DNA of 64,000 nt from Thermoplasmatota archaeon (GCA_028279595.1 JANQNK010000008.1:1-64000); one strand, 5' to 3'; shown: positions 8,114 to 62,144, counted from the stretch's first letter. Program-made: numbers and translations. The notes: generated by a model not told the origin, from the letters alone.

Positions 8114-8183
8114 TCTCGATTCCCCCTCTGTTCGATCCACGACATCGGGTTCTCCACAAATGACGCTGAAAACAAGTGCGGAA

Positions 8184-8840
8184 TCAATCCGCATCACCTC
8201 TCCCGTCGTCCTCGAGGACCACTCCCTGGACGAGGCATTCCCGCAGGCCGCCCTCCTCGACACCCAGTATCCTCTCCAGAAGCTGACAGTTCAGCCTGAC
8301 GTAGTCCTTCCCAGGGTCGGAAAGGTCGTAGCCCCTGAGCTTCTCCCGGGGAGTGAAAAAGGTGGTTCCGAGAACGGACAGGGCTGCCGCGAATGTGTCC
8401 GGTACATCGAAAACGCCCTCCGAGACCCCCTGGTCTATGATCGTCATGAAGTTGGGTACGAACATCTGCGCCAGACCGTCGTCGAAGCGGGCGTGCAGTA
8501 GGACGTTGCCGTCGGCGTAGAGGCAGCTCCAGAGCTCCTTCTTCTCGAAGGCGATCTCCCAGAAGTACTGGAATATCCTGTTGAGCTTGACGATAGCGGA
8601 CATGTCCTCGTCCCCGGCGATCCCCTCCACCCTCCGGGATATCTCGTCCAGGTTCGCCGCGACGATCTCGTCGATCAAGTCGTTCTTCGATTCGAAATGG
8701 TAGAAGAACGTACCCTTCGCGACACCCATCTTGTTAGTGATGCTCTCGACGCTCATCCCATCGAAACCCTGTTCGATGAGAAGCTCCTCGGCGGTCGATA
8801 TCAACCTCGACCGTGTCAGTGCTTTCCTGTCGGTCGACAC
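8184..8840 (-). CDS. TetR/AcrR family transcriptional regulator
   Basis: About 218 residues. Residues 5-55 form the TetR HTH: LISTAEELLIEQGFDGMSVE, then ITNKMGVAKGTFFYHFESKN, the family signature with the recognition helix at KGTFFYHF. The rest is a helical ligand-binding and dimerisation domain. An in-frame ATG at 8945 lies upstream of the TATA box and operator, so it cannot be used; the GTG at 8840, preceded by GTAGAGGGGAACGAT, is the likely start. The 17-base palindrome at 8858-8874 covers the expected transcription start, so autorepression is very likely. The giant surface-protein gene begins 70 bases downstream and may be co-transcribed. The inducer is unknown. Confidence 0.9.
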   Translation of the reverse strand: MSTDRKALTRSRLISTAEELLIEQGFDGMSVESITNKMGVAKGTFFYHFESKNDLIDEIVAANLDEISRRVEGIAGDEDMSAIVKLNRIFQYFWEIAFEKKELWSCLYADGNVLLHARFDDGLAQMFVPNFMTIIDQGVSEGVFDVPDTFAAALSVLGTTFFTPREKLRGYDLSDPGKDYVRLNCQLLERILGVEEGGLRECLVQGVVLEDDGRGDAD

Positions 8841-16000: not shown

Positions 16001-19000
16001 ATGAAACTACTGAGGACCATCCAGATGACGCTGATCGTGGCGACATTGTTCATGTCAATCGCAGTGATCGGGACGCATGGGAAAACATGGATCGTGGACG
16101 ATGACCCCGGCTCATGGCGGGACGCTTCCAACATCAACAGCGCCATCTCCAGCTCGACGAACGGTGACACGGTCCTGGTCTACAACGGGACCTATAACGA
16201 GAACGTGGAGGTCACCAGGTCAATAACCATCACCGGGAACGGTTCGAACGTGACCATCGTGGATGCGGAGGGATCGGGAATCGTATTCGAGGTGAGGGCT
16301 AACGATGTCACCATCGAGGGCATCACGCTAACAGGGAGCGGAAGCGGGTCGAACACCGGTGGGATCTTCGCAGACGGCAGGGACGGGCTCAGGATCAGGT
16401 CCTGCGAGGTCCTCGAGAATGCGGACGATGGCATCTACATCAAGAACTCCGATGACGGCGTCATATCGAACTCGACCGTCACCGGGAACGATGCGAACGG
16501 CATCCTCCTCATCGACTGCACCGGGTTCAGGACCGTTTGGACCTCCTATGAAGAGAATGTCCACAACGGCATTGCCATCCACGACACGAAGCTGACGGTG
16601 GACAACTGTTCCATCGGCGGCAACGGGATGCACGGCATCCACATGACAGGTGCCTCTAGGAAGTGCGATATCGGATTCGTGGAGATATTCGGGAATTCGG
16701 GATACGGCATCAACATCACCGTGGGTGCCGATAACAATACGGTACATCACTGCAACATGACCGACAACGGAATGGAGCCCCAGGCATTCGATTCCGGGGA
16801 TTCGAACGTATGGGACGACGGCGAGGTCGGGAACTTCTGGTCCGATTACGGCGGCTCCGACCATAACGGGGACGGGATAGGCGACTCGGATTACGACCTG
16901 GACGGCGAGGCGGACGCAGTGGACCGCTATCCGCTCATAGTTCCATGGAATCTCGCTCCCAAGGCGTGGATCGACTCCATCTCTCCGAACCCGGTCATCA
17001 AGAGGGAGAACGTGACCTTCGCCGGGAACGGCTCGGACTCGGACGGAAGGGTCGTCACCTACATCTGGTCGTCAAATCGGCAGGGTACGTTCTACAACGG
17101 CCCGCCAGCCGTATTCAACTATTCGGGAATGAAGAAAGGTGAACATCAGATCACGTTCAAGGTCATAGACAACGAGGACAAGGCCAGCAAGACGAAACGC
17201 TGGAACCTGACCGTGCTTCCTGTTCCGAACGTCAGACCGAACGCGACCATACTCCTCGTGAATCCCGATCCCGTTGAGGAGGAGCACCGGGTCGACCTAG
17301 AGGGGCTCGGTGAGGACGACGACGGTGCCGTCACACGGTTCGTCTGGTCCTCGTCCATTGACGGGGAGTTCTACAACGGGTCCTCCAACCAGACCTGGAC
17401 AACGGACCTCTCAGTGGGCGACCACATAATATCATTCAAGGTCAAGGACAACGACGACGCCTGGAGCTGGCTCGTCAACACCACATTGACAGTTGAACCG
17501 CATCCATTGACGGCGGACATCGTGAGCGTGGACCCCAGTCCAGCCGTTGTGGGAGACAACATCACGTTCACTGGAGCATCTCGCTGGGGCAGGAACGTAT
17601 CCGACTATTCCTGGAATTCCGATGTAGACGGGCCCCTCTACAACGGTTCCAACGACACTTTCACGACGGACTCGCTCTCGATGGATGATCATGTTATCAA
17701 TTTGAGGATACGGAGCGACGGTTTCGGTTGGAGCGAGGAAACCACGGTTAACCTGTCGGTCAGGGCAGAGCCCAACAAGCCTCCAACCGCTGTGATACAT
17801 TCGATATCGCCGAACCCCGCGTCGAAGACGGACAACGTGACGTTCTGGGGTTCGGGATCGGATGCCGAGGGACCCCTCGCACGTTATCGTTGGAGCTCGT
17901 CCATGGACGGCGAGTTCCTCAACACCACGGATCCGATCTCGCTCTATGACGGCCTTACGATCGGTTACCATGAGATCACCCTGTGGGTCATGGACTCCGA
18001 TGGGGTGTGGAGCGGACCGGTCTCAACTGATCTCGCAATACATGACTCACAGGTCAGAGCGGACCCTCCGGTCTGCAGCATCGAGTCCATCACGCCGAAC
18101 GTTGCCCGATCGGAGGAGGAGGTAACCTTCGACGGCGACGCGTCCGACTGGGACGGTACCGTGGTGAAGTGCGAATGGAGCTCATCCAGGGATGGCATCG
18201 TGTATTCGGGACCCGATCTCGACTTCTCCACCGCCAACCTGACCGTTGGTGTCCACCGGATCACGTACAGGGTCATGGACAACGAGGGCTGGTGGAGCGA
18301 TCCGAAGGAGAGGGTCATGGTCGTGCTGCCTGACGACCATACTGGCGCGCCAGATGACCTCTGGCTCCAGTACGGAATGAACGCCGGGAACACCCGGACC
18401 TTTCCCAATATCACCTGCAGGAGCCTGAAGTTCGTTCAGAGGACGAACCTGAGCGGCCTGTCGGACGGGGTGATCGTGAATGACGGCGATTCGCTCTACC
18501 TGAACATCGACCTTGCCGAGAGCGATTACTGGGATGAGGCCACGATCTCCATCGATCCGGTGACCCTGGAACGGGAGTGGCTCTGGAACACCTCGTGGGC
18601 GAGCATGTGGGGTCCGGCGATCCTGAACGGAACGATAATCACACCGACAGGGGATGCCATCTATGGATTGTCGCCAGGTGGCGAGGAGCAGTGGAACCAT
18701 TCAGTTGGAGGTTTTCTCTCGTTCGTGAACGCCCACCTGAAGGTCTGGAACGGCATCATCTTCGTCGTCATGGGGAACGAGATCGGAGCAATGGACACGT
18801 CCGGAGAGATGCTCTGGCAGAACGAGGTTGGTACGCTCATCGCACCTCCGGCGATAGGAGATGCGGTATACGTTGGCAACATCGAGGGAGGCATCCACGC
18901 GCTGGATCCCTTCGATGGGTCGGTACTGTGGACCTATGCGCTCGAGGGCGGAATCTACGAGTCCCCGGTGGTCACCGAGGACTACGTTGTCTTCGGGTCC

Positions 19001-20029
19001 GGCTATTACTTCTCCAACGGTTCCCTGGTGGTCCTGGACAAGGAGACCGGCAAGAAGGTTTGGAGGCGAAATTTCGACCTTCCGATCTCGTGTTCTCCGG
19101 TCGTTCACAACGGGAACGTCATCTTCGAAACTGGGAACGAACTCAGGTGCCACAGGCTCAAGAATGGTAACGAGGTGTGGGTCGAGGACACCGGCCACGC
19201 CACCGACCTGCTCGTCGCCGGGGACGCGTTGATCGTTACTCAGGAGATCTGGTTAACGGGATTCACTCTCAGCCACCCGACCATCAGCATCATCGATTTG
19301 GATACCGGCGAGAGGCAGTTCAAGTACGAATTCCCGGTCGGCAGGAGCGATTCCTATTTCGAGGGTGGTCCCTTCCATCCGGTCATCTCGAACGGTTCCC
19401 TTTACGTGGTCTACGACCACTACATATACGAGTTCGAGATACGTTCGGATACCGGGCCAGCGGACGACGGAAGCTCCTCCGAGGAGGGTCTGGCCCTTGC
19501 GTTCGAACCGGGGTCATTGCTGTTCATCATCTCGATCGTCGCGATACTCGTCATCGTCCTGATAGCCGTGGTCCTTGGTTCTCGGTCCCGCAGAGGTGGA
19601 GGGACCAAGAGGGCGAGGCCTCACAAGCCGAACGACCGATCGGTCAACAGGACCGGGATCGAGCCGGAACCTCGCAGACCGTCTCCACGAGACCACGGAC
19701 CTGGTGGCAGGTATGATAAGGGTCATTCGAGGCGAGGGTACGATCACGAGGACGGCGTTCCCTTCGTTACGGGTAGACCGATCAGGGATGGACCGGGAAC
19801 GGCTCCTCCCGTCCAACGGCGAAGGATAGCGAGGGATGAGCTGCCAATCAGGGAAAGGGACCCATACCAAGATGAGCCATTCATCGGGGAGGAACCTGAC
19901 GAGTTCGATACGGAATTCGATCAGCAAGACCAAGAATCGGGTTCATCGGAACAGTTCATCTGTCCGGAGTGCAACGCCGAGATTGCGGAAGGAGCGAGGT
20001 TCTGTCCTGAGTGCGGGACTTACTTCTGA
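16001..20029 (+). CDS. surface protein: beta-helix, five PKD repeats, PQQ-type propeller, membrane helix, zinc-ribbon tail
   Basis: 1342 residues. A signal peptide (1-27) leads to a NosD-like right-handed beta-helix (about 30-300) that ends in a cap with WSDYGGSDHNGDGIGDSDY. Five PKD-like repeats of about 90 residues follow (about 320-776), each with an ISPNP-like start and a YxWSS-type motif. Residues about 790-1143 are a PQQ-enzyme-type propeller with repeats such as ALDPFDGSVLWTYALEG. A membrane helix (about 1165-1190), a basic and disordered tail, and a C-terminal ribbon CPEC-x12-CPEC follow. GGAGAGGACCTG precedes the ATG. No PQQ-enzyme active site is evident, so binding or scaffolding is more likely than catalysis. 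Confidence 0.9.
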   Translation: MKLLRTIQMTLIVATLFMSIAVIGTHGKTWIVDDDPGSWRDASNINSAISSSTNGDTVLVYNGTYNENVEVTRSITITGNGSNVTIVDAEGSGIVFEVRANDVTIEGITLTGSGSGSNTGGIFADGRDGLRIRSCEVLENADDGIYIKNSDDGVISNSTVTGNDANGILLIDCTGFRTVWTSYEENVHNGIAIHDTKLTVDNCSIGGNGMHGIHMTGASRKCDIGFVEIFGNSGYGINITVGADNNTVHHCNMTDNGMEPQAFDSGDSNVWDDGEVGNFWSDYGGSDHNGDGIGDSDYDLDGEADAVDRYPLIVPWNLAPKAWIDSISPNPVIKRENVTFAGNGSDSDGRVVTYIWSSNRQGTFYNGPPAVFNYSGMKKGEHQITFKVIDNEDKASKTKRWNLTVLPVPNVRPNATILLVNPDPVEEEHRVDLEGLGEDDDGAVTRFVWSSSIDGEFYNGSSNQTWTTDLSVGDHIISFKVKDNDDAWSWLVNTTLTVEPHPLTADIVSVDPSPAVVGDNITFTGASRWGRNVSDYSWNSDVDGPLYNGSNDTFTTDSLSMDDHVINLRIRSDGFGWSEETTVNLSVRAEPNKPPTAVIHSISPNPASKTDNVTFWGSGSDAEGPLARYRWSSSMDGEFLNTTDPISLYDGLTIGYHEITLWVMDSDGVWSGPVSTDLAIHDSQVRADPPVCSIESITPNVARSEEEVTFDGDASDWDGTVVKCEWSSSRDGIVYSGPDLDFSTANLTVGVHRITYRVMDNEGWWSDPKERVMVVLPDDHTGAPDDLWLQYGMNAGNTRTFPNITCRSLKFVQRTNLSGLSDGVIVNDGDSLYLNIDLAESDYWDEATISIDPVTLEREWLWNTSWASMWGPAILNGTIITPTGDAIYGLSPGGEEQWNHSVGGFLSFVNAHLKVWNGIIFVVMGNEIGAMDTSGEMLWQNEVGTLIAPPAIGDAVYVGNIEGGIHALDPFDGSVLWTYALEGGIYESPVVTEDYVVFGSGYYFSNGSLVVLDKETGKKVWRRNFDLPISCSPVVHNGNVIFETGNELRCHRLKNGNEVWVEDTGHATDLLVAGDALIVTQEIWLTGFTLSHPTISIIDLDTGERQFKYEFPVGRSDSYFEGGPFHPVISNGSLYVVYDHYIYEFEIRSDTGPADDGSSSEEGLALAFEPGSLLFIISIVAILVIVLIAVVLGSRSRRGGGTKRARPHKPNDRSVNRTGIEPEPRRPSPRDHGPGGRYDKGHSRRGYDHEDGVPFVTGRPIRDGPGTAPPVQRRRIARDELPIRERDPYQDEPFIGEEPDEFDTEFDQQDQESGSSEQFICPECNAEIAEGARFCPECGTYF

Positions 20030-34605: not shown

Positions 34606-37600
34606 CTATCTCTTTGAGCGAGCGGGTGCCCTTCCGGGCTTTCCGACCTGAGGTGTCTCGGTAACGCGGTCGGAGTTCATGATGCCTAGGTAATCGTTCG
34701 TCAGCCTTGTACCGCCACCCCTCACCGTGACGACGACACCCTTCTCCCGCAGCGCCCTGAGGTGGTAGGCGACGGCGGGCTGCGTTACTTTCATCTTCTT
34801 CGCGAGCTTTGCCTGGGTTATCCCGGGGTTGGAACCGACGATCTCGACAATCCTGACCTCCGCTCCCCTGAGCTGGAACTCGGGGACCTTGTATCCGAAC
34901 GGATAGAAGCGCTTGCGGAAGCCGTCGTTCCTGCTCTTGATGAAGCCGGCCGTCTCCAGCACCCGGAGGTGATAGCCGGCGGAACCGTTCGGCAGTGCCA
35001 GCTGCTTCTTGATGAGGCTGAAGTGCGCTCCGGGATTCTCGAGGATGTACTCGACGAGCTTCCCGCGGGTCTTCTGGTCCGTGATCTTCTTTGTCCTGAG
35101 CTTGGAGTAGAGCGGGAAGAGCATGGAGAGGAAGAGGTAGAACCCGACTCCGGTGAACGCGAAGGCCGTCAGGACCCCCGCAGCGGCGACGCCGGCTATC
35201 AATCCCTGTTCGTCCGAGTTCGGGGGCCGGAAGAAGGGCTTCGCGCCGTCGTCCTCGCCGTCATCATTGTCCACGTAGAGGACGACGCTGTCCTCGTCGG
35301 AGTGGTGGTATCCGTCGTACGATATCACAACGATGGTGTGGTTCCCGTCATCCAGGTCGGCGGTCTTGATCCTGTAGGTCCAGCTCGTCTTCCCATCGGC
35401 GTACTTCCAGGAACCGTTGTCGATCTTGACCTTGACCCACTGGATGATGCCGTTCGAGTCCCAGGCCGTTCCCGAGAGCTCGACCGTCCCGTTGACCTCG
35501 TCGCCTGTCTCGTGGGATGTTATCTCCACTGTGGGCTTCCTGTTGACAATGACCTTGCCCTTGACGGGGTCGCTCTTCACGTCCTCGTCATCGACGGTCC
35601 ACAGGTAGATGTCATGGGTACCCAGTGAGAGTCCGTCGGTCGTGAAGGTCGAGTTGGTGCCCTCGTAGAGCTCCTCGTCGATGCTCGAGGCCCACAGGTA
35701 CTTCGCGATTGAACCGTCGTCGACGCCGCCCGCCTTGAAGGTGACCTCGGCGCCGTAGAGGGCCGGGCTCGGGGATATCGACAGGATGACCGCGGATGGT
35801 TCACCGTTTATCGTCACGGTCCCTTCGACCTCGTCGCTCCAGGTCCCATCGGAGTCCTTGACCTTGAAGTAGATGGTGTGGGTGCCGTTCGACAGCTTCT
35901 TCGTCGAGAACACGAAGTGGGGTCCGTAGTAGAGGAGGCCGTCGATGCTCGAGCGCCAATGGTACTTGATCGTTCCCTCGGAACCGGTCCCGTTGAAGGT
36001 CACGTATTCGCCCTGGTCGGCCGACTCGGGCGAAATGCCCACGATCTCCGCCTCCGGCCTCTCGGTCTCGTTCTCGTCCTCGCTGCCGTTGACGTTGAGA
36101 TAGGTGTAGTAGTAGTCGCTCAGGGCGCCGTCGTCGTCCCTGACCTTGACCTTTATCGTGTGGTTCCCGTCAGAGAGCCCGGTCTCCTGGAAATGGTCGG
36201 ACTCGCCCTCGTAGAGCTCGCCATCCTTGAACGAGTACCAGAAGTACCAGACCACCTCGCCGTCCGGATCGGTGGCGTTCACGTGGAAGTACACCGTATC
36301 GTTCTCTTCCGCCGGGTCCGGTGTGATATACACATCGGTGATACTGGGTCCGACGTTCTTCGTACCGTTTATCGTGACATGGTCGTAGGCGTAGTCGCTT
36401 GCCAGCTCCTCATCATCGTAGACCTTGAGCTTGATGGAGTGGTTGCCGACGGACAGATCATCGGTGGTGAAATGGCTCTTGTTGCCTGCATACAGCTGGC
36501 CGTCCTTTGAAGAATACCAAACGTACCATATGATATCGCCGTCGGGATCGGACCCGCTTCCGTAGAAGGTCACTGCCTCACCTTCCTCCGCGTGGTCTGG
36601 ATCGATCTCGAGGATGGTCGCGTTCGGCTTCTGGTTCTCCGAGCCGTTCACGACCAGATGGGAGTATGCATAATCACTGTGTGCGTCGTCGTTGTCGTAG
36701 ACCTTCAGCTTGATCGTGTGGTTGCCGACGGACAGTTCACTGCATGTGAACGAGGTCTCGTTTCCCTCGTAGAGCTCTCCGTCCTTGGATGAATACCAGA
36801 CGAACCAGTCCACGTAGCCGTCGGGGTCCTGACCGCCTCCCTTGAAAGTGACGTTCTCGCCCTCCTCGGCCGGGTTTGGCGTGATGTCGAATATGGTGGC
36901 ATTGGGCCTCTGGTTCTCGTCGCCCTCGATGACGACATAGGATTGAGCGTAATCGCTGTGGGCATCGTCATCATCCCACACCTTGAGCTTGATGGTATGA
37001 TTTCCGATGGACAGGTCGTTCGTAGTGAACGAGCTCGAGTTTCCCTCGTGGATCCAGCCGTCGAAGGAGGAGTACCAGTCGTACCACACGACCTCACCGT
37101 CAGGATCGGTACCTTTGCCGTAGAAGGTGACGTTCTCGCCCTTCTCGGCGGGATTCGGATCGATCTCCAGGATCTCGGCCGTAGGGCTCTGGTTCTCAGT
37201 ACCGTTGATGACGAGGTGATCGTAGACGTAATCGCTCGTCGCGTTATCATCGTCCCTGACCTTGTGTTTGATCGTGTGATTCCCCGAGGACAGGTTGGTT
37301 GTCGAGAAATGGCTCTCGTTACCTTCGTAGAGCTCGCCATCGATGGACGAATGCCAGTAGTACCAGACGACCTCGCCGTCGGGATCGCTGGCATTGCTCG
37401 TGAATGTTATGGAATGGCTGTTGTTGGCCGGGTTCGGCGATATCCCGCCGATGTCGGCGATCGGTGCGTGGTTGCTGTCCTTTACCTTGAGTGTCTCGTG
37501 ATCGTACTCGCTCCAGGTGTGATTGTTGTCCATCACCCAGAACTTGATCTTGTGCTCCCCTATCGAAAGGTTCGAGTACGTTGTCGAGTTGGAGGATCCG

Positions 37601-38808
37601 TTGTAGAACACTCCGTCGATATCGGAGGCCCACCGGTACTTGATGATGGTGCCGTCCTCGTCCTCGCCGTAGCCTGTGAACGTCACATCATCGTCATCGA
37701 AGGCTGGTGCTGGTGATATCGATGAGATGTGGGCCGAAGGTGCCTTGTTTCCGGTGGATCCACCATCGGGTTCCATGAGTGGATACCGGTCCTCGTTGTT
37801 CCCTTCACCATCGATCTGGTACGCGGTATCGCCGATCCCGTCCTCGTCGGCGTCCGTACCTTCGTAATCGTCCCAGTAGTTGCCTTCCTCGCCGTCGTCC
37901 CAATCTAAGTTGTCATCGGAATTGGACACGCAGAGGGTCTGGGTCGAATTCGTATGATTGGTATCATTGCTTCCATAGAATTGGTTGTGATGGATGGTGA
38001 TGTTGTTGAAGCCGCCGCTCCCGATCTGGATGCACCATCCCCAGTGATCCGTGATGTTATTCCCGGTGATCAGCACGTGGTTCACTCCACCTGGCCAGCC
38101 GTAGAAGATTATTCCGAGATGGCTATCGGCGATGTAATTGTCGGTGATCTCGACGTCCCGGCAGTCGACCAACCTGATGCAGTTCTCTGGAGCACCTGTT
38201 ATCTCATTGCCATCTATCGTCAGGTTATGGGAATTCTTCCACTGGATCCCTGCTCCGAAGCTCGCAGTCCTGATGATGCATTCGCGCACTTCGGACCAGT
38301 TGGCGCACTGTGCCTTGATGGCATGGGAATTGATCCCCTCTATCAGGCAGTCCTGGATGAGGATCTCCTCAACATACCGCATACCGATGACCCCGTAGGA
38401 CCAGTGATGGTCGGAACCTGTGATGTTCATCTCCTTGATGACGACGTTGTAGCCATTGATCTCGATGGTGTCGACCCTGTACTCCTGGGAGTGGAGCCAG
38501 GTCTCACCCGTCCCATTCCCGATCAGGGATACCGAGTTGTTGACGTAGATGTTGCCGGAGTACTGTCCAGCGTATATCCGAATGGTATCCCAGTCACTGG
38601 ATGCGTTAAGGGCGTCCTGGATGTTGTCGTGATCTGCCCATGCCCCACCGTCGTCGTCCACGACGATCTCGTTGCCGGCGGAGGCCCCGGATGAGACCAG
38701 GTACAATGACGCCAAGAGGAGCGATACTATCGCCAGCATCCGGAGTCCTGCCGCCAGATTGATTTCCATTCTCGAACAATCGGGGATATTCCTACTTATC
38801 GAGCTCAT
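34606..38808 (-). CDS. membrane-tethered regulator: beta-helix, eight PKD repeats, Ig-like domain, membrane helix, two winged-helix domains
   Basis: 1400 residues. A signal anchor (about 20-44) leads to a NosD-like beta-helix (about 45-330) ending in an acidic cap (GNYWDDYEGTDADEDGIGD). Eight PKD repeats of about 88-93 residues follow (about 353-1090), then an Ig-like domain. One or two membrane helices lie at about 1198-1232. The cytoplasmic end has two winged-helix domains: LIKKQLALPNGSAGYHLRVL and AKLAKKMKVTQPAVAYHLRAL. So a large external sensor is joined directly to a DNA-binding module. The ATG at 38808 has GAGGGATCATC; the promoter shares an element with the 38926-45060 gene, its paralogue. 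Confidence 0.9.
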   Translation of the reverse strand: MSSISRNIPDCSRMEINLAAGLRMLAIVSLLLASLYLVSSGASAGNEIVVDDDGGAWADHDNIQDALNASSDWDTIRIYAGQYSGNIYVNNSVSLIGNGTGETWLHSQEYRVDTIEINGYNVVIKEMNITGSDHHWSYGVIGMRYVEEILIQDCLIEGINSHAIKAQCANWSEVRECIIRTASFGAGIQWKNSHNLTIDGNEITGAPENCIRLVDCRDVEITDNYIADSHLGIIFYGWPGGVNHVLITGNNITDHWGWCIQIGSGGFNNITIHHNQFYGSNDTNHTNSTQTLCVSNSDDNLDWDDGEEGNYWDDYEGTDADEDGIGDTAYQIDGEGNNEDRYPLMEPDGGSTGNKAPSAHISSISPAPAFDDDDVTFTGYGEDEDGTIIKYRWASDIDGVFYNGSSNSTTYSNLSIGEHKIKFWVMDNNHTWSEYDHETLKVKDSNHAPIADIGGISPNPANNSHSITFTSNASDPDGEVVWYYWHSSIDGELYEGNESHFSTTNLSSGNHTIKHKVRDDDNATSDYVYDHLVINGTENQSPTAEILEIDPNPAEKGENVTFYGKGTDPDGEVVWYDWYSSFDGWIHEGNSSSFTTNDLSIGNHTIKLKVWDDDDAHSDYAQSYVVIEGDENQRPNATIFDITPNPAEEGENVTFKGGGQDPDGYVDWFVWYSSKDGELYEGNETSFTCSELSVGNHTIKLKVYDNDDAHSDYAYSHLVVNGSENQKPNATILEIDPDHAEEGEAVTFYGSGSDPDGDIIWYVWYSSKDGQLYAGNKSHFTTDDLSVGNHSIKLKVYDDEELASDYAYDHVTINGTKNVGPSITDVYITPDPAEENDTVYFHVNATDPDGEVVWYFWYSFKDGELYEGESDHFQETGLSDGNHTIKVKVRDDDGALSDYYYTYLNVNGSEDENETERPEAEIVGISPESADQGEYVTFNGTGSEGTIKYHWRSSIDGLLYYGPHFVFSTKKLSNGTHTIYFKVKDSDGTWSDEVEGTVTINGEPSAVILSISPSPALYGAEVTFKAGGVDDGSIAKYLWASSIDEELYEGTNSTFTTDGLSLGTHDIYLWTVDDEDVKSDPVKGKVIVNRKPTVEITSHETGDEVNGTVELSGTAWDSNGIIQWVKVKIDNGSWKYADGKTSWTYRIKTADLDDGNHTIVVISYDGYHHSDEDSVVLYVDNDDGEDDGAKPFFRPPNSDEQGLIAGVAAAGVLTAFAFTGVGFYLFLSMLFPLYSKLRTKKITDQKTRGKLVEYILENPGAHFSLIKKQLALPNGSAGYHLRVLETAGFIKSRNDGFRKRFYPFGYKVPEFQLRGAEVRIVEIVGSNPGITQAKLAKKMKVTQPAVAYHLRALREKGVVVTVRGGGTRLTNDYLGIMNSDRVTETPQVGKPGRAPARSKR
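35535..37750 (-). repeat. eight tandem PKD-coding repeats of about 265-280 bases
   Basis: The middle of the 1400-residue regulator gene is built of eight similar units, each starting near a PNAxI-type segment, then D/EPxPAEExxxVTF, VVWYxWYSSxDGELYEGN and LSxGNHTIKLKVxDDD. The central five units are the most alike, indicating recent internal duplication. Confidence 0.8.
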
Positions 38809-38848
38809 GATGATCCCTCGTTCCTTTCGTGGTTTTCATCCGGGAGGA

Positions 38849-38879
38849 GCATATAAGTAAAGATTGGAACGAGTCTTTA
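38849..38879 (-). promoter_or_regulatory. promoter of the 1400-residue regulator with shared upstream element
   Basis: On the plus strand, GCATATAAGTAA (TATA, 38849-38860) is followed by AGATTGGAAC-gag-TCTTTA (38861-38879). Read on the minus strand the element is immediately upstream of the TATA box. The same element stands before the 38926-45060 gene. Confidence 0.7.
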
Positions 38880-38925
38880 TAACGTCGACCGAACGTGGAT
38901 CCATTGACTGGCTATTCCATCCAGA

Positions 38926-41900
38926 TCACTTACGGACCCGTGCGCGGAAGTCCTTTGTCACGAGGCATCCGTCCTTCCTTGACGTTCGGACTACACCCTT
39001 GGATTTCAATGATTTCAGGTGGTAGGAGACTGCTGGAGGTGTCACCTTCATCTTCTCCGCGAGCTTCCTCTGTGAAATCCCAGGATTCGATGCGATGACC
39101 CTGAGTATCTGCTTCTCCTTCCTCGTGAACTCCACCTCAGGCACGTCGTATCCATGTGGGTAGAACCTGCGATAGAAACCGTCAGTCTGGCTCTTGAGGT
39201 AGCCATTCCTCTCGAGTATGCGAAGGTGATGGCCGAGCGAACCGTTCGGAAGGGCCAGGTCCTTCTTGATCAACTGGTAGTGGGCCCCTGGATTGTCGGC
39301 GAGGTAATCGACGATCTCGCCCCTTGTCTCATTCTTCATGACATCCTTGCCCTTGACCCTCGAATAGAGAGGAAGGAACGCGAACAACGCGTATCTACCC
39401 CGGTCCGACGATGCGACCGCACCGAAGGCCAGGACAGCTATCAGTGCCATGGCGCCTATTGCCGGGGTGGACGTAAGAGGGATGTTCAGACCGGTGTCCT
39501 CGTCCCGGTCCGTCGGTTCGACCTCATCCGGATCCTCATCCTCCGCCTCGACCGTGAGGTATAGCTTCCCGAGATCGGAGTAATGGTTCCCGTCATAGCT
39601 CCTGATATTGATCTGGTAGGTCTCGTTCGAGAGTCCCGATGTGTTCCATTTGAACGACCACATTGTCGTACCCGTAGCGGTCTTCCATGACCCGTCGCCT
39701 ATCTGGTACTCGATCCTCTGGATCGACCCATCCTCGTCAGATGATGTCCCGGATACGGTGACGGTTCCATTAACGGTCGACCAGGACGATGGTGAATTGA
39801 TAGTGACCGAGGGTCGTACGTTTACAGTCACCGTCGTCGTCACAGTATCGCTCCATACTCCATTCCCATCCTGGACCTTCAGGGATATCGTGTGTGTCCC
39901 ATTCGACAGGTCGTCAGTATAAAGCGTGCCGTCGGTTCCGTTGTACAGCTCGCCATCGATGCTCGATGTCCAGACATACCTGGTGATCTCGACGTCGTCC
40001 ACGCAGTTCGGTGTGAAAGTAACATTGTTACCCTCTGCAATGATCGACTTGGAGACGGTCCAGATCCGTGCAACAGGTATGCCGTTCACAGTGACATTGG
40101 CGGTCTGCCGTTCACCCCATAATCCTTCATTGTCGATGGAATGGAGCGTGATCTCATGTGTCCCGTTCGATAGGGACGATGTTGACCAGACCTGCGAGGT
40201 TCCGTTGAATAATTCCCCATCGATTGATGATGTCCACACAAGAAGAGCCACCGAGCCATCGAAATCGAATCCGGTGCCGTTGAATGTGATCTCGTCACCC
40301 TCGTCGACGCTTGAGGGGTGGACGCTCTTGATCGTGGCGACCGGTGCGATGTTCTCTCCGGATGAGGACTCCTCGTTCCATGGTTCCATCAGAGGATACG
40401 GGTCCTTGACCTGGCCAGAAGAACCGTTTCCGGTACCGTTGTCGCCTCCCGAGGAATCGGATGCTATGTAATATGGAGTATCCCCGATCCCGTCATCATC
40501 ATCGTCCTCTCCATCATAGTCGGACCAGTAGTTGCCAGCGGACCCATTATGCCAAATTGCAGAACCATACTCATCATATACTTGCGTATTGACCCGATTG
40601 TCGATGAAATCATTGTGGTGGATGGTTATGGTTCCCCCGAGCTTTCGTTCTATGTAGATGCCGCCATGGTTCTCGACGAACCTGTTGAACTTGATCGTGT
40701 GGTTGAACGCATCATCGATCTCGATGCCATATTGGCCAGAGCCATTGACAACACCACATTTCTTGATTGTATTGTTGCGTATGACAATATTATCGGAGCT
40801 TCTTGAAAAAATACCAATTCGGTCGGTCCTCGTTATTAGATTTCCAACGATATGGATATTATCTGCTTCCCTGAGGTAAACGCTGTTCTGGTTCGTTCTT
40901 ATCTCGTTGCCCCAAATTTTAATTGAATATCCTTCGTGGACCTCGATAGGTACGTCAGAATTCACCAGATAGCAATCATGGATCTGACTGTTCCCTGACC
41001 TATCGAAATAGATACCAACGTCGTCTTTTGATGTGATATCGCATGAGGTGATATTTATCTCCATTGAGTTCCTTATCATGAGTCCAGTCGAGTTCGAATT
41101 GAGATCACAATCCTCAACAACCACATCGTTCGACATGACCATATGGATGGAATAATCGCACTTCGTTGTCGTAACGTTCTTTATTATACTATCATTGGTG
41201 AATCCGATAAGTATTGGATACGTCGTATCGCGGAGTGTCTGATCTCTGATCGTGGCTTTGGTACAATTGGCGATGATGATCTGGCCTCCTCCAATTGGAA
41301 CCGTGACATTCTCCTGGTTCTTGATGTAGAGGATGGGGTTCCCGTCGATCGTGTTCGATTGATCGATGTAATGGGATGACCACTCGTCCGCTTCCGACCA
41401 AGAAGGATAATAGGAGGGGTATGTCCGAATGAAAAGGCATCCGTTGTAGAGGGTATTGTTCCGGAACGTCAGGTCGACTGTATCCTGGATGAATATGCTA
41501 AGACCTGGCGATGTGATCGTGTTTCCATGGTAGGACGAATGGTCCGAGCTTGCGATATCAATGCCGAAAACGCTTGCCCATATCGTATTGTTGATGATGA
41601 GGTTGTTGATATTACTGTGGTGATAAATACCGACACGATTCGATTTAATCTCATTTCTAATGATACTCGTTTCAATGTTCCTGTAGGACCAGATCCCGTT
41701 GCTGCTGGCATCGAGAAGTGAGTTGGATATCGTAATATTGTCATTCCATCGTAAATAGATACCAGTAGAAACAGTATCCATTGAATCAGACCCGTTCGGG
41801 CCTCCACCACCTATGACCTTTCCAACACATTGAACATTGTCTACAGTACTGTTGTCGCAGTTCTGTAACCTTATTCCAGTACGAACCTCATGATCGCAAG

Positions 41901-44900
41901 TGATGTTCGTGATGGATACGTAACTGGACCATTCGACAGATATTCCTTCGTCCTTGTGAGACGACAGGTGGATCCCGTCGAGGAATGAGTTGTCACAACT
42001 TTCCAAACGTAGGCCAGTAGAGTCGCCGTTGCTGCCTGTTACGGAAATGTCACTGAGGTTGATCTGGACTCCGATGACCTGGACGATGGGACCCCGGTCA
42101 CCATAGATTTCAGAGGTCGTTCCATTCCCGACTATTGTCACTGCGATTGTGATGTTGATGTATTCGTGATATTCACCGTCGTATATACGGATCTCATCAC
42201 CATCCTGAGCTGCGTCCAGTGCGTCTCCGATCGATGAGAAATCCGCACCAGCCCAATCATCATCGACTATCAAGGTCACGGGGTCGCGGGTCCCATTCCT
42301 TCTCATAAGAGGACGAAGGTCCACAGACCCGGATGAGCCATTGAATGTATATGGGGTGTCACCTATTCCATTGCCATCGCTGTCCACTCCAGAATAATCA
42401 CCCCAATAGTTGCCGTAGAAACCGTCGTCCCAGTAATTGTCATCACTTTCGACGAGTCCCTGCTCGACGCCATCATCGGTGTTGTCGATCGCGTTGTTGT
42501 GGTGTAGAATGTTATCTATTGAGTCCTGATCGATCGTGATCGCGAATTCGTCATTATCCATAATGTAATTGTATACCACTGTGATCCCAGATGTCTCTTC
42601 GAGCACGATTCCGCCACCTGAATTTCCGATTATTCTGCATCTCTCGATAGTTCCATTCGTGACTCCTTCGCAGACCAATCCATCGCCCGAGTTCCTTCTG
42701 ATGGTAGAGTCCCTGAATTTTGCCCGTTGAGAGTTCGATACGATGATCGCATCGGAACCGCTATCCCTGATCGTGGAATTCGCGAACCTGAACGCTATGC
42801 AATCGACTATGGAGAGACCGACTCCCAGGTTGTTTTCGATCACACATTCATCGATGCGCAATCGTGCTACATCTTCCGCATAGAGACCCGACCCGTTCGA
42901 GGAAGAGCCGCCGCCCTGGATCGATAGACCACTGATGATCGTATCATCGGACATCACTGATAATGTAATCCCGGACCCACCTGCATCGACGGTAGTTCCA
43001 CTCGAACCATTTCCTACGATCGTCAATGGCAGGTTCACAACTATCTTCTCGTTGTAGGTCCCCGAATAAACCAGGATCATGTCATTCGATGTCGCGTTTT
43101 GAAGTGCTGATGAGATCGTGGTATGGGATGCCCAGGATCCTGGGTCATCATCGACAATCAGTAGGGACCTGTCGGTCAGAGGGTACCTGTCCCAGATGGT
43201 GATGTTCTCATCGTTATAAATGTAATACGGGGACTCGCCAACTCCATCGTCATCCGTGTCATAACCTTGATAATCGGACCACCAGTTCCCCTCGGACCCA
43301 TCATCGTATTGGTTGTTCAATGTTCCATTCGGATTGCGCCCTTGGTCGGAGATCTGGGGAGAAAGGCCGTTTTCGAGGAAGGTGTTGTGATGGATCAGAT
43401 TGCTATCGCCATCGACGTCAATGCCATATCCTGTATTGTCCTGGAACAGGCACCAGGATATGATGTTGTCGTCACCATTGACAAAGACCGGAGTACCATC
43501 ATTTCCAATGAACCTCGAATTGCGGATCGAGCTGTTCGATTTCAATTTGATACCGACACGTGAATTGTTACTGAAGGTCGAATTCAAGATCTCCAAAAAG
43601 TCGTTGTTTCCCATTTCATTGCCCCACCCTTCAGAATTATTGTGTATATGAACATCATGCAGTACGACCGAATCGAGATTGCGGATAAAGAGCGGATCCT
43701 CTTTGCAATATGAGATGGTCATGTTTTCCATCGTGAGATTTCCTCCTCCGTATTCCCAAGCGAATCCTGGACCCTCTGCCGAGGTCAATATGGTATCCCG
43801 AATGGTGAAATCATCGCAACGATCAACCTGGATCGCTCCGCGCCAATCTCCAGATTCGTTGCAAATGAATCTGCTGTTCGCTACAGTGATTCGACCACAA
43901 CCATCGAATTCTATCCCGTAAAAGATGTCGTACGTCCACCCATCCAGGAGGAGGTCCTCACAGTAGCTGAAGCGAATGGTATCTGAATAATTGAACAACG
44001 AGATATTGGACATCTGAAGACCTTCGACCTTATAGAAATCCAACCACCTAGTATCTGTGAAGGTGAGGTTTTCGACGACCACGTTCACCGAATCATCGAT
44101 GCTCAGTGAATCGCCAGGTCCACTGATCCTGCAGTTCGAAACGGAAGCGTCGTACAGATCGCTAAGTTTCAGTCCAAAATAGTCCATACGATAGATTTCA
44201 CAATTCTCGATCGTCACGTTGTCACAGTATTCTATCCATGCACCGGTCATCTGATCTGAGAAGGAACCGTTAGATAGGGTAACATCTGAACTGAAGTATG
44301 CCTGCAATCCGGATTTCGCATCATTAGTGGTCAGACCATCGACCATCACGCTAGTACAATTGATAATAATGACTTGACCAGCATTGGAAGGTACGATGAT
44401 ATCGCTCTGGTCCGTATACCTGTGGATGTCCTTCCCGTTCGTGGTGCAATCGACCACGGTGGTAGTGCCCGCGTTCGTGGCGTTCGAAACGCGTTCGTAG
44501 AAACCACAATCGAGGAAAGAACAATTTGAGACGTATACGTTCGTGGACGATGAGCTGAGATAGATCCCGCCCCCATTGAATTCGTCGAATATACAGTCCT
44601 CTATCGATACGTTGTCCGACCATAGAATGCTGATACCTCGAGCATTACTGCCCGATCCGTTCAAGCGCAGTCCTTCGACACGAACATCGTCACCCTCGAC
44701 AGCGATCAGAGGGGAACTGCCATCGAGTTCGAGGAATGATGAGGAACCATTGCCGATGATCGTCAACTCTTGATCGACCACGACGGCACCGCCATAGACT
44801 GAGTCCATTGAGTACGTTCCAGAATATACAAGGATCGTATCACCGGCGGAACTGTCATCTACAGCGTCGGCCAGATTGTCGTGATCCGCCCAATCCCCGT

Positions 44901-45060
44901 CGTCATCATCGACGACCCACGTCTTCGCTCCGACCTCCGGCACCAGGAGTAGGGAGACTACCAACACGAGGCCGAGGATGAATAACACAATAGGACGATG
45001 AAACATCCTCGACCCCAGGAACATTCGGGAAACCATATCGCTCTTCCCTTTCCATATCAT
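38926..45060 (-). CDS. giant membrane-tethered regulator: three beta-helix modules, two PKD repeats, Ig-like domain, membrane helix, two winged-helix domains
   Basis: 2044 residues. A signal anchor (about 20-45) precedes three NosD-like beta-helix modules; each opens with a DDDxGxWAxH-type segment and ends in a cap such as GNYWSDYDGEDDDDDGIGD. Two PKD repeats and one Ig-like domain follow (about 1565-1830), then hydrophobic segments (about 1860-1895). The cytoplasmic end has two winged-helix domains, LIKKDLALPNGSLGHHLRIL and RKLAEKMKVTPPAVSYHLKSL, closely matching the 34606-38808 protein. GAGGGGATCAA precedes the ATG. The beta-helix part is visibly more AT-rich than the C-terminal part and the flanking genes. 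Confidence 0.9.
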   Translation of the reverse strand: MIWKGKSDMVSRMFLGSRMFHRPIVLFILGLVLVVSLLLVPEVGAKTWVVDDDDGDWADHDNLADAVDDSSAGDTILVYSGTYSMDSVYGGAVVVDQELTIIGNGSSSFLELDGSSPLIAVEGDDVRVEGLRLNGSGSNARGISILWSDNVSIEDCIFDEFNGGGIYLSSSSTNVYVSNCSFLDCGFYERVSNATNAGTTTVVDCTTNGKDIHRYTDQSDIIVPSNAGQVIIINCTSVMVDGLTTNDAKSGLQAYFSSDVTLSNGSFSDQMTGAWIEYCDNVTIENCEIYRMDYFGLKLSDLYDASVSNCRISGPGDSLSIDDSVNVVVENLTFTDTRWLDFYKVEGLQMSNISLFNYSDTIRFSYCEDLLLDGWTYDIFYGIEFDGCGRITVANSRFICNESGDWRGAIQVDRCDDFTIRDTILTSAEGPGFAWEYGGGNLTMENMTISYCKEDPLFIRNLDSVVLHDVHIHNNSEGWGNEMGNNDFLEILNSTFSNNSRVGIKLKSNSSIRNSRFIGNDGTPVFVNGDDNIISWCLFQDNTGYGIDVDGDSNLIHHNTFLENGLSPQISDQGRNPNGTLNNQYDDGSEGNWWSDYQGYDTDDDGVGESPYYIYNDENITIWDRYPLTDRSLLIVDDDPGSWASHTTISSALQNATSNDMILVYSGTYNEKIVVNLPLTIVGNGSSGTTVDAGGSGITLSVMSDDTIISGLSIQGGGSSSNGSGLYAEDVARLRIDECVIENNLGVGLSIVDCIAFRFANSTIRDSGSDAIIVSNSQRAKFRDSTIRRNSGDGLVCEGVTNGTIERCRIIGNSGGGIVLEETSGITVVYNYIMDNDEFAITIDQDSIDNILHHNNAIDNTDDGVEQGLVESDDNYWDDGFYGNYWGDYSGVDSDGNGIGDTPYTFNGSSGSVDLRPLMRRNGTRDPVTLIVDDDWAGADFSSIGDALDAAQDGDEIRIYDGEYHEYINITIAVTIVGNGTTSEIYGDRGPIVQVIGVQINLSDISVTGSNGDSTGLRLESCDNSFLDGIHLSSHKDEGISVEWSSYVSITNITCDHEVRTGIRLQNCDNSTVDNVQCVGKVIGGGGPNGSDSMDTVSTGIYLRWNDNITISNSLLDASSNGIWSYRNIETSIIRNEIKSNRVGIYHHSNINNLIINNTIWASVFGIDIASSDHSSYHGNTITSPGLSIFIQDTVDLTFRNNTLYNGCLFIRTYPSYYPSWSEADEWSSHYIDQSNTIDGNPILYIKNQENVTVPIGGGQIIIANCTKATIRDQTLRDTTYPILIGFTNDSIIKNVTTTKCDYSIHMVMSNDVVVEDCDLNSNSTGLMIRNSMEINITSCDITSKDDVGIYFDRSGNSQIHDCYLVNSDVPIEVHEGYSIKIWGNEIRTNQNSVYLREADNIHIVGNLITRTDRIGIFSRSSDNIVIRNNTIKKCGVVNGSGQYGIEIDDAFNHTIKFNRFVENHGGIYIERKLGGTITIHHNDFIDNRVNTQVYDEYGSAIWHNGSAGNYWSDYDGEDDDDDGIGDTPYYIASDSSGGDNGTGNGSSGQVKDPYPLMEPWNEESSSGENIAPVATIKSVHPSSVDEGDEITFNGTGFDFDGSVALLVWTSSIDGELFNGTSQVWSTSSLSNGTHEITLHSIDNEGLWGERQTANVTVNGIPVARIWTVSKSIIAEGNNVTFTPNCVDDVEITRYVWTSSIDGELYNGTDGTLYTDDLSNGTHTISLKVQDGNGVWSDTVTTTVTVNVRPSVTINSPSSWSTVNGTVTVSGTSSDEDGSIQRIEYQIGDGSWKTATGTTMWSFKWNTSGLSNETYQINIRSYDGNHYSDLGKLYLTVEAEDEDPDEVEPTDRDEDTGLNIPLTSTPAIGAMALIAVLAFGAVASSDRGRYALFAFLPLYSRVKGKDVMKNETRGEIVDYLADNPGAHYQLIKKDLALPNGSLGHHLRILERNGYLKSQTDGFYRRFYPHGYDVPEVEFTRKEKQILRVIASNPGISQRKLAEKMKVTPPAVSYHLKSLKSKGVVRTSRKDGCLVTKDFRARVRK

Positions 45061-45101: not shown

Positions 45102-45132
45102 GGTTATATATGCAGATTGGAACACTTCTTTA
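45102..45132 (-). promoter_or_regulatory. promoter of the 2044-residue regulator with shared upstream element
   Basis: On the plus strand, GGTTATATATGC (TATA, 45102-45113) is followed by AGATTGGAAC-act-TCTTTA (45114-45132), at the same spacing as in the promoter at 38849-38879; 16 of 19 bases are identical. The rest of the gap to 45262 contains only short palindromes such as CGATCG. Confidence 0.7.
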
Positions 45133-45262: not shown

Positions 45263-46852
45263 TCAATTCCGGCGTTTTCTCACCAGTACCACGACGGCGA
45301 TGGCCGCGACGACGAACACCATCTCCATCCCGGGGCTGGACCCGCCGCCATCTCCGCCGGCCTTCGGTTCCGTGGTCACATCGATGTATCCTTCATCGTA
45401 CGAGCTGAACCAGGGATCGTAGTTGATCATCCTCAAACCGGCAGCGTTCATCTCGTAGTTGGTGGTGTCGCCGATAGACGACAGCGGGACCACGATGACG
45501 ACCTCATCGTCTTCAGGGATAGCGTAGGAGATCGTGTCTATATCATCGGCGACCTGGTCCATGATCATCGCGGTATCCATCATCGCTGTTGCCACGTAGA
45601 CAGCGTTGTCGAAGTCCGTCAGGTCCTTGGTCCCGGACGGGAACATGTAGACCATGAAGGCATTGAGGTCGTCGCCGGAGCTGACGTTCATGGTCCCGTC
45701 GATCTCGATCTCCAGGAACAGATGCTCGCCGGACGTCAGAGCGGTGAACTGGACGATATCGATCTCCGGATAGCCTCCGACGACCTTGTCATCCTCGTCC
45801 ATCACATCGTCGAGGTCGTCGTCCTCCGCGTATATCTCTTCGGCGATATGGACCATGATATCATCGGATGTCACGAGATCGTCCTCATCCGTCGTTGTCA
45901 ATGTTATGACGAAGGACCCGATGTCATGACTGAGCCAAACTGGATTCTCCGATGTCGACTCCTCCGTGATCCCGTCCGATGCGTTGTAGTCCCATGACCA
46001 GGTGAGCTCCTTCTTCGAATAGATCGTGCAATAGTCCCGCAGCCTCAGATTCTCACCCGGTTCGCCCAGGACGTCCCCGGCTATCGGACCGATCAGCGCG
46101 ACACTCGAGTTGATGAAGACGTTGTCGTCGCAGTATTGGTCCATCTCAAGGGGTCCATCGACGTTGCCGGCGACCTCGTTGAGGATGAACATGTTGTCAT
46201 CGGACAGCGCCATGGATATGCCGTAGGCGCCGTTCGACGAGATGTTGTTTCCGCTTATGTTGTTGTTGTCAGAGAGCGAGATGTACAACCCATCGTCGGA
46301 GTGGTTGATGCACACGTTGTCGACCACAGTGTTGTCGTCGGAGTCGAAGATGTAGATCGCAGTATAGTCGCCCTCCATGATCGTATTCCCGGTGACGACA
46401 CAGTTGAACACGTTGTCCAGCCTGATGCCGTAATCGTTGTCGACGAGGAGGTTGTCCGTGATCGTGGTGTCGTTGGCCTCGCAGTCGATTCCCTTTCCGA
46501 GATAGGGAGCACCCGTCACCATGAAGTCGCTGAACGTGCAGCCCGGAGCCGTTATCGTCACCACGTTACCGAAGCCGGTCCCGATGTCAAGGATTGTCTG
46601 GTCCGAACCGTTCCCCATCAGGTACAGCTGTTTATCGATCTCGACCTCTTCGGAATATGAACCGTTGAAGACGAGGATGGTATCTCCGGCAGTGGCGTTC
46701 TCGATCGCACTCTGTATGGTATTGTAGTCTGCCCATGGTCCGTCATCGTCGTCGACGAAGATCGTCTCTCCAGTCGATGATCCCGATACCAGGACGATCG
46801 CCAGAACGGTCAACAGCACGGCTGGTATCAACTTCGAATATCCCCTCTTCAT
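45263..46852 (-). CDS. secreted beta-helix protein with PGF-CTERM-like sorting tail
   Basis: 529 residues. The signal peptide begins MKRGYSKLIPAVLLTVLAIV. A NosD-like beta-helix occupies about 28-240, then an Ig-like part with WSWDYNASDGI, then an acidic beta-rich domain (about 320-490) with HLFLEIEIDGTM and VVIVVPLSSIGD. The last 25 residues, GGGSSPGMEMVFVVAAIAV and a basic end, resemble a PGF-CTERM tail (Met replacing Phe), which would direct archaeosortase processing and lipid attachment. A TATA-like TTTAATATC near 46884-46893 puts transcription after the TTG at 46873, so I use the ATG at 46852. Confidence 0.82.
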   Translation of the reverse strand: MKRGYSKLIPAVLLTVLAIVLVSGSSTGETIFVDDDDGPWADYNTIQSAIENATAGDTILVFNGSYSEEVEIDKQLYLMGNGSDQTILDIGTGFGNVVTITAPGCTFSDFMVTGAPYLGKGIDCEANDTTITDNLLVDNDYGIRLDNVFNCVVTGNTIMEGDYTAIYIFDSDDNTVVDNVCINHSDDGLYISLSDNNNISGNNISSNGAYGISMALSDDNMFILNEVAGNVDGPLEMDQYCDDNVFINSSVALIGPIAGDVLGEPGENLRLRDYCTIYSKKELTWSWDYNASDGITEESTSENPVWLSHDIGSFVITLTTTDEDDLVTSDDIMVHIAEEIYAEDDDLDDVMDEDDKVVGGYPEIDIVQFTALTSGEHLFLEIEIDGTMNVSSGDDLNAFMVYMFPSGTKDLTDFDNAVYVATAMMDTAMIMDQVADDIDTISYAIPEDDEVVIVVPLSSIGDTTNYEMNAAGLRMINYDPWFSSYDEGYIDVTTEPKAGGDGGGSSPGMEMVFVVAAIAVVVLVRKRRN

Positions 46853-46886
46853 AGTGGTCACCGGTTTGACCAACGAGGTAGGGATA

Positions 46887-60804: not shown

Positions 60805-62037
60805 TCAGATGTCCTCGTCGTCCGACTCGTCCGGAGCGATGAGGTAGCAGTGGGTCTGCCGGCCCTCCTTGATCACGTCGATGAGACCCTCGTGGTACAT
60901 TGCCCGCACGTTGAGGTTCACCAGCTGCTTGCGCGCGCCAAGGGCCACGCAGATCTCCTTCTGGGATATGCCGGGATTATCTGCGATCAGATTGAGGATC
61001 CTGAGCTGGAACGTGTCCATCTCGATGGACTCCTCGACCTTCATGCCTATCGGGTAGAACCGGCGGAACCGGCCGTCCATCACGGACTTGACCAGCTTCT
61101 CCCGTTCGAGTACCTTGACGTGATAGGCGAAAAGGCCGTTCTTCAGACCCAGCTTCCGCATGATGCCGGAGTAGTGATCGCCGGGATTCGCGATGATGTA
61201 ACCGTGGATCTTACCTCGGATGTAATTGTTCAGGACCGTTCGGCCGGTGACCTTCGCGTATAGCAGGCCGAAGGCCGAGAAGACCAGATAGATGCCGGAC
61301 TGGGAAAGGGCCAGCACGACGAGGAACGAGATGAGGCCAGCAAGCCAGTAGTAGTACGACGGCACGGATGTCACGGTCTCCCTGCCCGGTTTCGACGATG
61401 CTACCCTGATGTTCACCTGCTGGGTGGTGACACCGTCAGTGGCTAGGATGGTCACATTGCTGCCTCCGAGCTCCGTCGTGTCCACGAAGAATGCGAACTT
61501 CGACGTCCCGGCGGCCTCGGTCCATTCGCCGTCCTCGACCCTGAAACTGACCGAAACGACACCTCGGTCGTCGGTGGCCTCGCCCTCGACCATCACAACG
61601 CTGTCGGCCGGGATGACCTCGGACGTGACGGTGATCTCGGGGGGTGTGGCCGGCGTCTCGGCCGAGACGACGTTCGAGTACGAGAATGCGTGGGAATAGC
61701 CCTCGGCCGATATCATGAAGTGGTAGGTCGCGCCCTCGTCGAGTCCTGAGATGGTCTTGGAGGTCAGTCCGGTGCCTACCACACCGCTCACATACGTGCT
61801 CCAGACCCTTGTAGGGACCATGAGCTCGGAGACGTCCGAATAGTGTATGATGGTCTGGTTCAGCTCGGGGGACGCCTCCTGTGTCCACGTTATGCGCACG
61901 CTCTCGCTCCCGAGGACCTCGATGCCCGTGATCTCGGGGGCGGGCGGTGCGGGTCCCTCCTGGCCGGTAGCGTCACCGGTGAGGTAGAAAGAGGCGATGA
62001 TCACGACCAATATTGCCAGGATACCGACGGCTCGCAC
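60805..62037 (-). CDS. membrane-tethered regulator: fibronectin III and Ig-like ectodomain, membrane helix, two winged-helix domains
   Basis: 410 residues from a GTG at 62037. A signal anchor (about 4-22) is followed by an FN3 domain (about 33-130, with VRITWTQEASPELNQT) and an Ig-like domain (about 131-215). Hydrophobic segments lie at about 225-258. The cytoplasmic part has two winged-helix domains: MRKLGLKNGLFAYHVKVLER and KEICVALGARKQLVNLNVRA. This plan matches the two giant regulators (34606 and 38926), and the linker motif FRRFYPIGMKV matches RKRFYPFGYKV. The TATA box and palindrome at 62041-62066 predict a leaderless, autorepressed transcript. Confidence 0.9.
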   Translation of the reverse strand: MRAVGILAILVVIIASFYLTGDATGQEGPAPPAPEITGIEVLGSESVRITWTQEASPELNQTIIHYSDVSELMVPTRVWSTYVSGVVGTGLTSKTISGLDEGATYHFMISAEGYSHAFSYSNVVSAETPATPPEITVTSEVIPADSVVMVEGEATDDRGVVSVSFRVEDGEWTEAAGTSKFAFFVDTTELGGSNVTILATDGVTTQQVNIRVASSKPGRETVTSVPSYYYWLAGLISFLVVLALSQSGIYLVFSAFGLLYAKVTGRTVLNNYIRGKIHGYIIANPGDHYSGIMRKLGLKNGLFAYHVKVLEREKLVKSVMDGRFRRFYPIGMKVEESIEMDTFQLRILNLIADNPGISQKEICVALGARKQLVNLNVRAMYHEGLIDVIKEGRQTHCYLIAPDESDDEDI

Positions 62038-62066: not shown

Positions 62067-62144
62067 CTAGTTTGGTGCGCCCCGTTACCGATATTTAAAG
62101 GTATTCGATGGATTTATGAGAGGGACCTGTGCCGATGCACCGGT

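Follow-up and report, generated by a model that had tools for sequence, protein, structure and literature searches.

Outside a few model species, it is poorly known how archaea sense their surroundings and by which path the signal reaches their promoters. In the bacterial regulators ToxR and CadC, sensing outside the cell and a winged helix inside it are joined in a single chain. Transmembrane transcription regulators (TTRs) have been catalogued as a class in both bacteria and archaea (Demey et al., 2023; PMC10269533). As described there, they are one-component, mostly single-pass proteins that combine a DNA-binding domain with at least one membrane helix, show lineage-specific expansions and number 4 per archaeal genome on average. 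ArnR and ArnR1 of Sulfolobus are archaeal membrane-bound one-component HTH regulators that control surface structures; they consist of an N-terminal HTH, HAMP and sensing domains and two C-terminal membrane helices (PMC6396743). HVO_0163 was described as ArsR-type (PMC10294847). At the promoter, the archaeal activators TFB-RF1 and EarA have sites at a fixed distance upstream of BRE/TATA, and TFB-RF1 acts on its own operon (PMC5937170, PMC10665913).

Two adjacent genes, W1 and W2, were studied in a stretch of 64,000 nucleotides from a Thermoplasmatota archaeon (the window). An earlier, sequence-only reading had placed two ORFs at 34606-45060, and both were found there. Their features are as follows, with the basis of each assignment in brackets.

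34606..38808, minus strand: W1, putative transmembrane transcription regulator gene, 1400 aa (ORF and Pfam domains)
38677..38751, minus strand: W1 predicted signal peptide, hydrophobic core (hydropathy)
37774..38673, minus strand: W1 right-handed beta-helix, NosD-type (PF13229/PF05048)
35554..37761, minus strand: W1 PKD repeats (PF00801, 117 bits, 6 stretches)
35326..35535, minus strand: W1 Ig-like domain Big_7 (PF17957)
35125..35208, minus strand: W1 membrane helix (hydropathy and family alignment)
34888..35073, minus strand: W1 winged helix 1, HTH_HVO_0163_N (PF24266)
34714..34872, minus strand: W1 winged helix 2, HTH_24/MarR-like (PF13412)
38861..38870, minus strand: W1 promoter box GTTCCAATCT (4 nt upstream of the TATA-like element 38852-38856)
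38926..45060, minus strand: W2, putative transmembrane transcription regulator gene, 2044 aa (ORF and Pfam domains)
44926..45003, minus strand: W2 predicted signal peptide, hydrophobic core (hydropathy)
40396..44925, minus strand: W2 beta-helix blocks, NosD-type (PF13229, 290 bits, 10 stretches)
39823..40350, minus strand: W2 PKD domains, two (PF18911; Ig-like folds in the AlphaFold2 model)
39607..39813, minus strand: W2 Ig-like domain Big_7 (PF17957 and structure model)
39403..39471, minus strand: W2 membrane helix (hydropathy and structure models)
39139..39333, minus strand: W2 winged helix 1, HTH_HVO_0163_N (PF24266 and model)
38968..39126, minus strand: W2 winged helix 2, HTH_24/MarR-like (PF13412 and model)
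45114..45123, minus strand: W2 promoter box GTTCCAATCT (4 nt upstream of the TATA-like element 45105-45109)

Pfam and hydropathy agreed with the domain order that had been read from the sequence, i.e. beta-helix, PKD, Ig-like domain, membrane helix and two winged helices. In W1, Pfam recognized Beta_helix/NosD, at least six PKD stretches, Big_7, PF24266 (62.3 bits, cut-off 31) and HTH_24 (49.1 bits, cut-off 21.9); in W2, Beta_helix (290 bits, 10 stretches)/NosD, two PKD domains, Big_7, PF24266 (66.8 bits, same cut-off) and HTH_24 (59.4 bits). Set against the description of TTRs, both chains carry PF24266 and PF13412 over the cut-off together with a membrane helix detected by hydropathy, and a kinase, receiver or other catalytic domain was found in neither of them by Pfam and NCBIfam scans, as had been supposed for the kinase. 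The winged-helix modules of W1 and W2 share 57% identity and their C-terminal 494 residues 44%, whereas the ectodomain of W1 consists of a single short beta-helix with many PKD repeats and that of W2 of long beta-helix blocks with two PKD domains. The proposed contrast between similar ends and differing ectodomains was thus confirmed. The NCBIfam NosD model TIGR04247 (cut-off 300) scored 310.5 for W2, summed over 9 repeat stretches, and 87.1 for W1. The score of W2 reflects beta-helix resemblance and does not speak for a role in nitrous oxide reductase maturation; automatic annotation would nevertheless name W2 (38926-45060) as a maturation protein of this enzyme, probably wrongly. Directly upstream of W2 lies a gene for a secreted NosD/beta-helix protein of 536 aa with a C-terminal membrane anchor (45263-46873, minus strand), for which none of the CCAATCT boxes described below was seen. 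Besides, the window encodes a 2206-aa NosD-type surface protein (1643-8263, minus strand) with a membrane helix followed by a cytoplasmic zinc-ribbon-like tail (CPTC...CHAC), and a 1342-aa NosD/PKD/PQQ-propeller surface protein (16001-20029, plus strand) whose cytoplasmic end is a zinc-ribbon-like tail (CPEC...CPEC). A zinc-ribbon-like tail also follows the winged helices of the family regulator L105.

Each chain has two hydrophobic segments and no others by hydropathy, an N-terminal one and a second at residues 1201-1234 of W1 or ~1860-1886 of W2. The net charge of the ectodomain and of the cytoplasmic end amounted to -149 and +21 in W1 and to -175 and +18 in W2. N-glycosylation sequons numbered 46 versus 1 in W1 and 58 versus 2 in W2; in the ectodomains this is ~3.5 times (W1) and ~2 times (W2) the expectation from composition, although repeats may inflate these values. 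Among 57 anchored relatives the mean charge per 100 aa was -8.5 in the ectodomain and +5.2 in the C-terminal end, and in 56 of them the ectodomain was the more acidic part. The bias in charge and sequons predicts that the ectodomain lies outside and the winged helices inside, which agrees with the opposite-side topology assumed before. The N-terminal segment had been read as a signal anchor, but cleavage as a signal peptide is the more likely case (ASA/G, VGA/K); with either, the C-terminus is predicted to be cytoplasmic.

Structure prediction of the C-termini, which had been proposed as a check, returned a high-confidence tandem winged helix: AlphaFold2 (28-member alignment) gave a mean pLDDT of 86.7, with most residues above 90. 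Compared with solved structures by Foldseek, the model resembled MarR, ArsR and Pol III winged helices, and a sequence match to 5duk was obtained. The C-terminal 480 residues of W2 were modelled as three Ig-like beta sandwiches, an acidic disordered linker, the membrane helix and the winged helices; a pTM of 0.43 leaves the placing of these parts relative to each other uncertain. A juxtamembrane stretch PLYxKxK is conserved in the family alignment. GxxxG dimerization motifs were rejected as a feature of the family membrane helices, where motifs of this type showed no excess over composition.

The sequence-only reading had counted just two such genes. A third regulator of the family, W3, is present in the window.

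60805..62037, minus strand: W3, third putative family regulator, 410 aa (orthologue of ~940-aa proteins, without their distal ectodomain)
62069..62075, minus strand: W3 promoter box CCAAACT (4 nt upstream of ATATATA; common to W3 and its orthologue L104)

In the whole genome, PF24266 gave 13 matches over its cut-off, and protein-by-protein reading yielded 12 anchored members, W1, W2 and W3 included. The suggested family search in other archaeal genomes was productive: a profile spanning the membrane helix and both winged helices matched 97 of 147 Thermoplasmatota genomes (E<=1e-20), with up to 23 matches per genome, counts that take in some soluble members. A collection scan, for which alignment A2 was used because the full alignment A1 was too diverse, found relatives only in Thermoplasmata and in unclassified euryarchaeotal MAGs; beyond the phylum the coverage consisted of the Pfam control genomes. 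In a tree of the winged-helix module the anchored members stand apart from most soluble ones (support 95/96), and the shortness of the module leaves many of the deep forks unresolved. The clade of W1 and W2 consists of beta-helix members and has expanded within this family of organisms, but remote branches have beta-helix ectodomains as well (L061, L070). The ectodomains of the family include NosD, PKD, Big_7, WD40-type propeller, FG-GAP, fn3, CARDB, NPCBM, GLUG, He_PIG and carboxypeptidase-regulatory domains, so that unrelated ectodomains are found on the same tandem winged helix, as the idea of a single output module paired with different sensors had implied. W3 has as orthologues L104, with 75% identity in the winged-helix module, and L069; its ectodomain measures ~200 residues versus ~740-760 in these two. 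By this sequence comparison, W3 has kept the output module and lost most of the distal ectodomain. Together with the variety among paralogues, this indicates that the output is conserved and the sensor changed among paralogues and orthologues alike. The idea that family genes tend to adjoin secreted-protein genes which they might control was rejected, since their neighbours were not enriched for such genes (3/19 versus 16/107).

Upstream of both W1 and W2, GTTCCAATCT occurs at equal distance from a TATA-like element, and CCAATCT exactly 4 nt upstream of such an element is common to W1, W2 and three paralogues. The pattern CCAATCTNNNNWTAWA has seven matches in the 2.29-Mb genome, located at W1, W2, L058 and both L059 genes and, twice, inside coding frames. 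As this pattern was defined after these promoters had been seen, the sharing of 7-mers provides the fair test. One exact 7-mer at gap 4 is shared by 5 of the 12 family promoters, whereas in 5000 random sets of 12 TATA-bearing promoters any 7-mer at that gap was shared by at most 2, and by at most 3 when any gap of 0-12 was allowed (500 sets). CCAANCT was found at none of 125 other genes, and on these two results a general promoter element of the genome was rejected. Promoters of this genome that have the exact box belong exclusively to family genes from a single winged-helix clade. W3 and L104 have CCAAACT with the same spacing to the TATA-like element, and the FG-GAP clade possesses a box of its own, ACAGATAAAAANNTATA, which is found once in each of three genomes and always at the family gene of that clade. 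Because W1 and W2 each have their own box and TATA, they are probably transcribed separately. Inverted repeats of at least 7 bp were looked for at the W1 and W2 promoters and not found. The box sits just upstream of the BRE or overlaps it. For the ORFs at L059:10834-16074, L060:5270, L064:5078 and L088:3852, the first start codon is placed within the promoter element or ahead of it; translation probably begins further downstream, and the automatic gene calls are likely mis-annotated.

In 24 distinct genomes CCAATCTNNNNWTAWA gave 69 matches versus 18 for the reversed control. Genes right behind the box began with a signal-peptide-like sequence in 16 of 23 cases, compared with 52 of 241 other genes (p=4.6e-6). 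A stricter criterion, used first, gave a weaker enrichment (10/23 versus 47/241, p=0.014); it excluded giants with several hydrophobic stretches and was therefore relaxed for both groups. Four of the box genes in other genomes are family members (L203, L215, L231 and L244), and others encode NosD, PKD, fn3 or VWA surface proteins, some with a PGF-type sorting tail. An extended form, GTWCCAATCT-N4-TATA, had 12 matches in 9 of 147 genomes of an even phylum sample and was no commoner than its reversed control (14 matches, 13 of them in two genomes). A phylum-wide element is consequently not supported, and the rarity of the extended form indicates that the box is lineage-restricted rather than universal. 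At L224 (~250-300), the GTTCCAAT box lies opposite its own reverse complement, with a TATA-like centre between the two, an arrangement like that of a divergent promoter. At L167, 1900-3000 (G000:C14, ~113.4-114.5 kb), an AT-rich stretch with a 260-aa ORF in a GC-richer genome is possibly a mobile or viral insertion.

The domain order, the topology bias, the family expansion, the exchange and loss of ectodomains and the shared promoter box were computed directly. W1 and W2 are probably one-component transmembrane transcription regulators with CCAATCT-N4-TATA promoters among their candidate targets. In the mechanism that we infer, the signal peptide would export the giant beta-helix/PKD/Ig ectodomain, which the single membrane helix would anchor to the membrane. 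Sensing would fall to this ectodomain, which shares its domain families with surface proteins of the organism; what it reports is probably contact with the cell surface or with a polymer on it, or the state of either. The signal would then cross the membrane along the helix and reach the winged helices, perhaps by dimerization, and the cytoplasmic tandem winged helix (HVO_0163-type plus MarR/ArsR-like) would bind DNA. Its direct targets probably include the CCAATCT-N4-TATA promoters of the regulators' own genes and of paralogues, to which further NosD/PKD surface-protein genes would be added in some relatives. The occurrence of the box at family and surface-protein genes suggests auto- or co-regulation of surface proteins. 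By analogy, its position near the BRE would allow activation, as it is close to sites of the TFB-RF1/EarA type, and repression by blocking TFB would be equally possible.

The identity of the box-binding protein is where another explanation competes best. With a chance somewhat short of even, the box is read by another factor, such as a winged-helix regulator of the soluble kind or an alternative TFB with an unusual BRE, that co-regulates surface proteins, these ones included, while the regulators do not control themselves. The overlap with the expected edge of the BRE is consistent with this, and such a shared, perhaps soluble factor is favoured by the finding of CCAATCT at distant clades of the family and, in several genomes, at surface genes that encode no regulator. 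However, clade-specific boxes favour autoregulation, as is seen in the restriction of the exact own-genome boxes to a single clade's family genes and in the unique box of another clade.

It is unlikely, though conceivable, that an intramembrane protease cuts the membrane helix of W1 and W2 once the ectodomain is engaged or shed, freeing the winged helices as a soluble factor. Single-pass proteins with a cytoplasmic transcription factor are typical of activation by regulated proteolysis; W1 and W2 have this layout, and their cytoplasmic end is basic, but the conserved juxtamembrane PLYxKxK suggests a function at the membrane. Less probable still is a role as surface adhesins or cell-wall proteins, in which the winged helices would tie the cell surface to a partner in the cytoplasm or to the chromosome without control of transcription. 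The very large repeat ectodomains do look like structural surface proteins, and winged helices are able to bind protein or nucleic acid without regulating. Nevertheless, the tandem winged helix is nearest to MarR/ArsR regulators, many members keep the same output module with unrelated ectodomains, W3 retains it despite an ectodomain of 200 aa, and the dedicated promoter boxes suggest regulatory wiring. That the five shared boxes are functionless leftovers of promoter duplication is very improbable: the five genes do belong to one clade, yet their winged-helix ends have diverged to ~45-57% identity while 7 bases and the spacing remained exact, the flanking promoter DNA is visibly dissimilar and the same box is present at distant members in other genomes.

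With W1 and W2 as transmembrane regulators, the family would offer up to ~20 candidates per genome for a single-chain link from surface to DNA. Its exchangeable ectodomains and its conserved candidate operator make it a concrete, testable system, and the candidate box lets targets be predicted in organisms that resist culture. A wider proposal is put forward only tentatively and is rather doubtful: Thermoplasmatota might possess a large set of surface-embedded transcription factors with ectodomains made of the modules that also make up their surface proteins, each clade being wired through a dedicated pre-TATA box to its own and other surface-protein genes. If so, the cell surface would directly report on and rewrite its own composition by means of these factors.

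The description of W1 and W2 as a little-described signalling system holds in part. The general kind has been catalogued (PMC10269533) and ArnR/ArnR1 have been studied (PMC6396743), but the present architecture, with its opposite order, was not found described on this scale. In the available part of PMC10269533 no description was found of a giant ectodomain led by a signal peptide and ending in a C-terminal tandem winged helix, and its text does not contain the word Thermoplasm-; nor was a description of the W1/W2 architecture in Thermoplasmatota found in the literature covered, to which most subscription journals and all preprints are external. Like the TTRs, W1 and W2 unite a DNA-binding domain and a membrane helix in one component; at least 12 such proteins occur in the present genome versus the archaeal mean of 4 reported there. 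ArnR and ArnR1 have the opposite domain order and are without a giant ectodomain, whereas in W1 and W2 the winged helices are C-terminal, preceded by one membrane helix and no HAMP. The order is also opposite in ToxR and CadC, which have an N-terminal OmpR-type winged helix and a small periplasmic domain; W1 and W2, with DNA-binding domains at the C-terminus, gave no Pfam match to Trans_reg_C (OmpR-type winged helix). Their first winged helix belongs, over the curated cut-off, to the HVO_0163 family PF24266, of which the anchored members here form a branch apart from most soluble ones. Like the sites of TFB-RF1 and EarA, the box at W1 and W2 is near BRE/TATA; regulators and sites differ, and in the available parts of those papers the two activators are not reported to span the membrane. 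While the TTR class itself is known, what is new here is the CCAATCT box 4 nt before TATA that W1 and W2 have in common with three paralogues.
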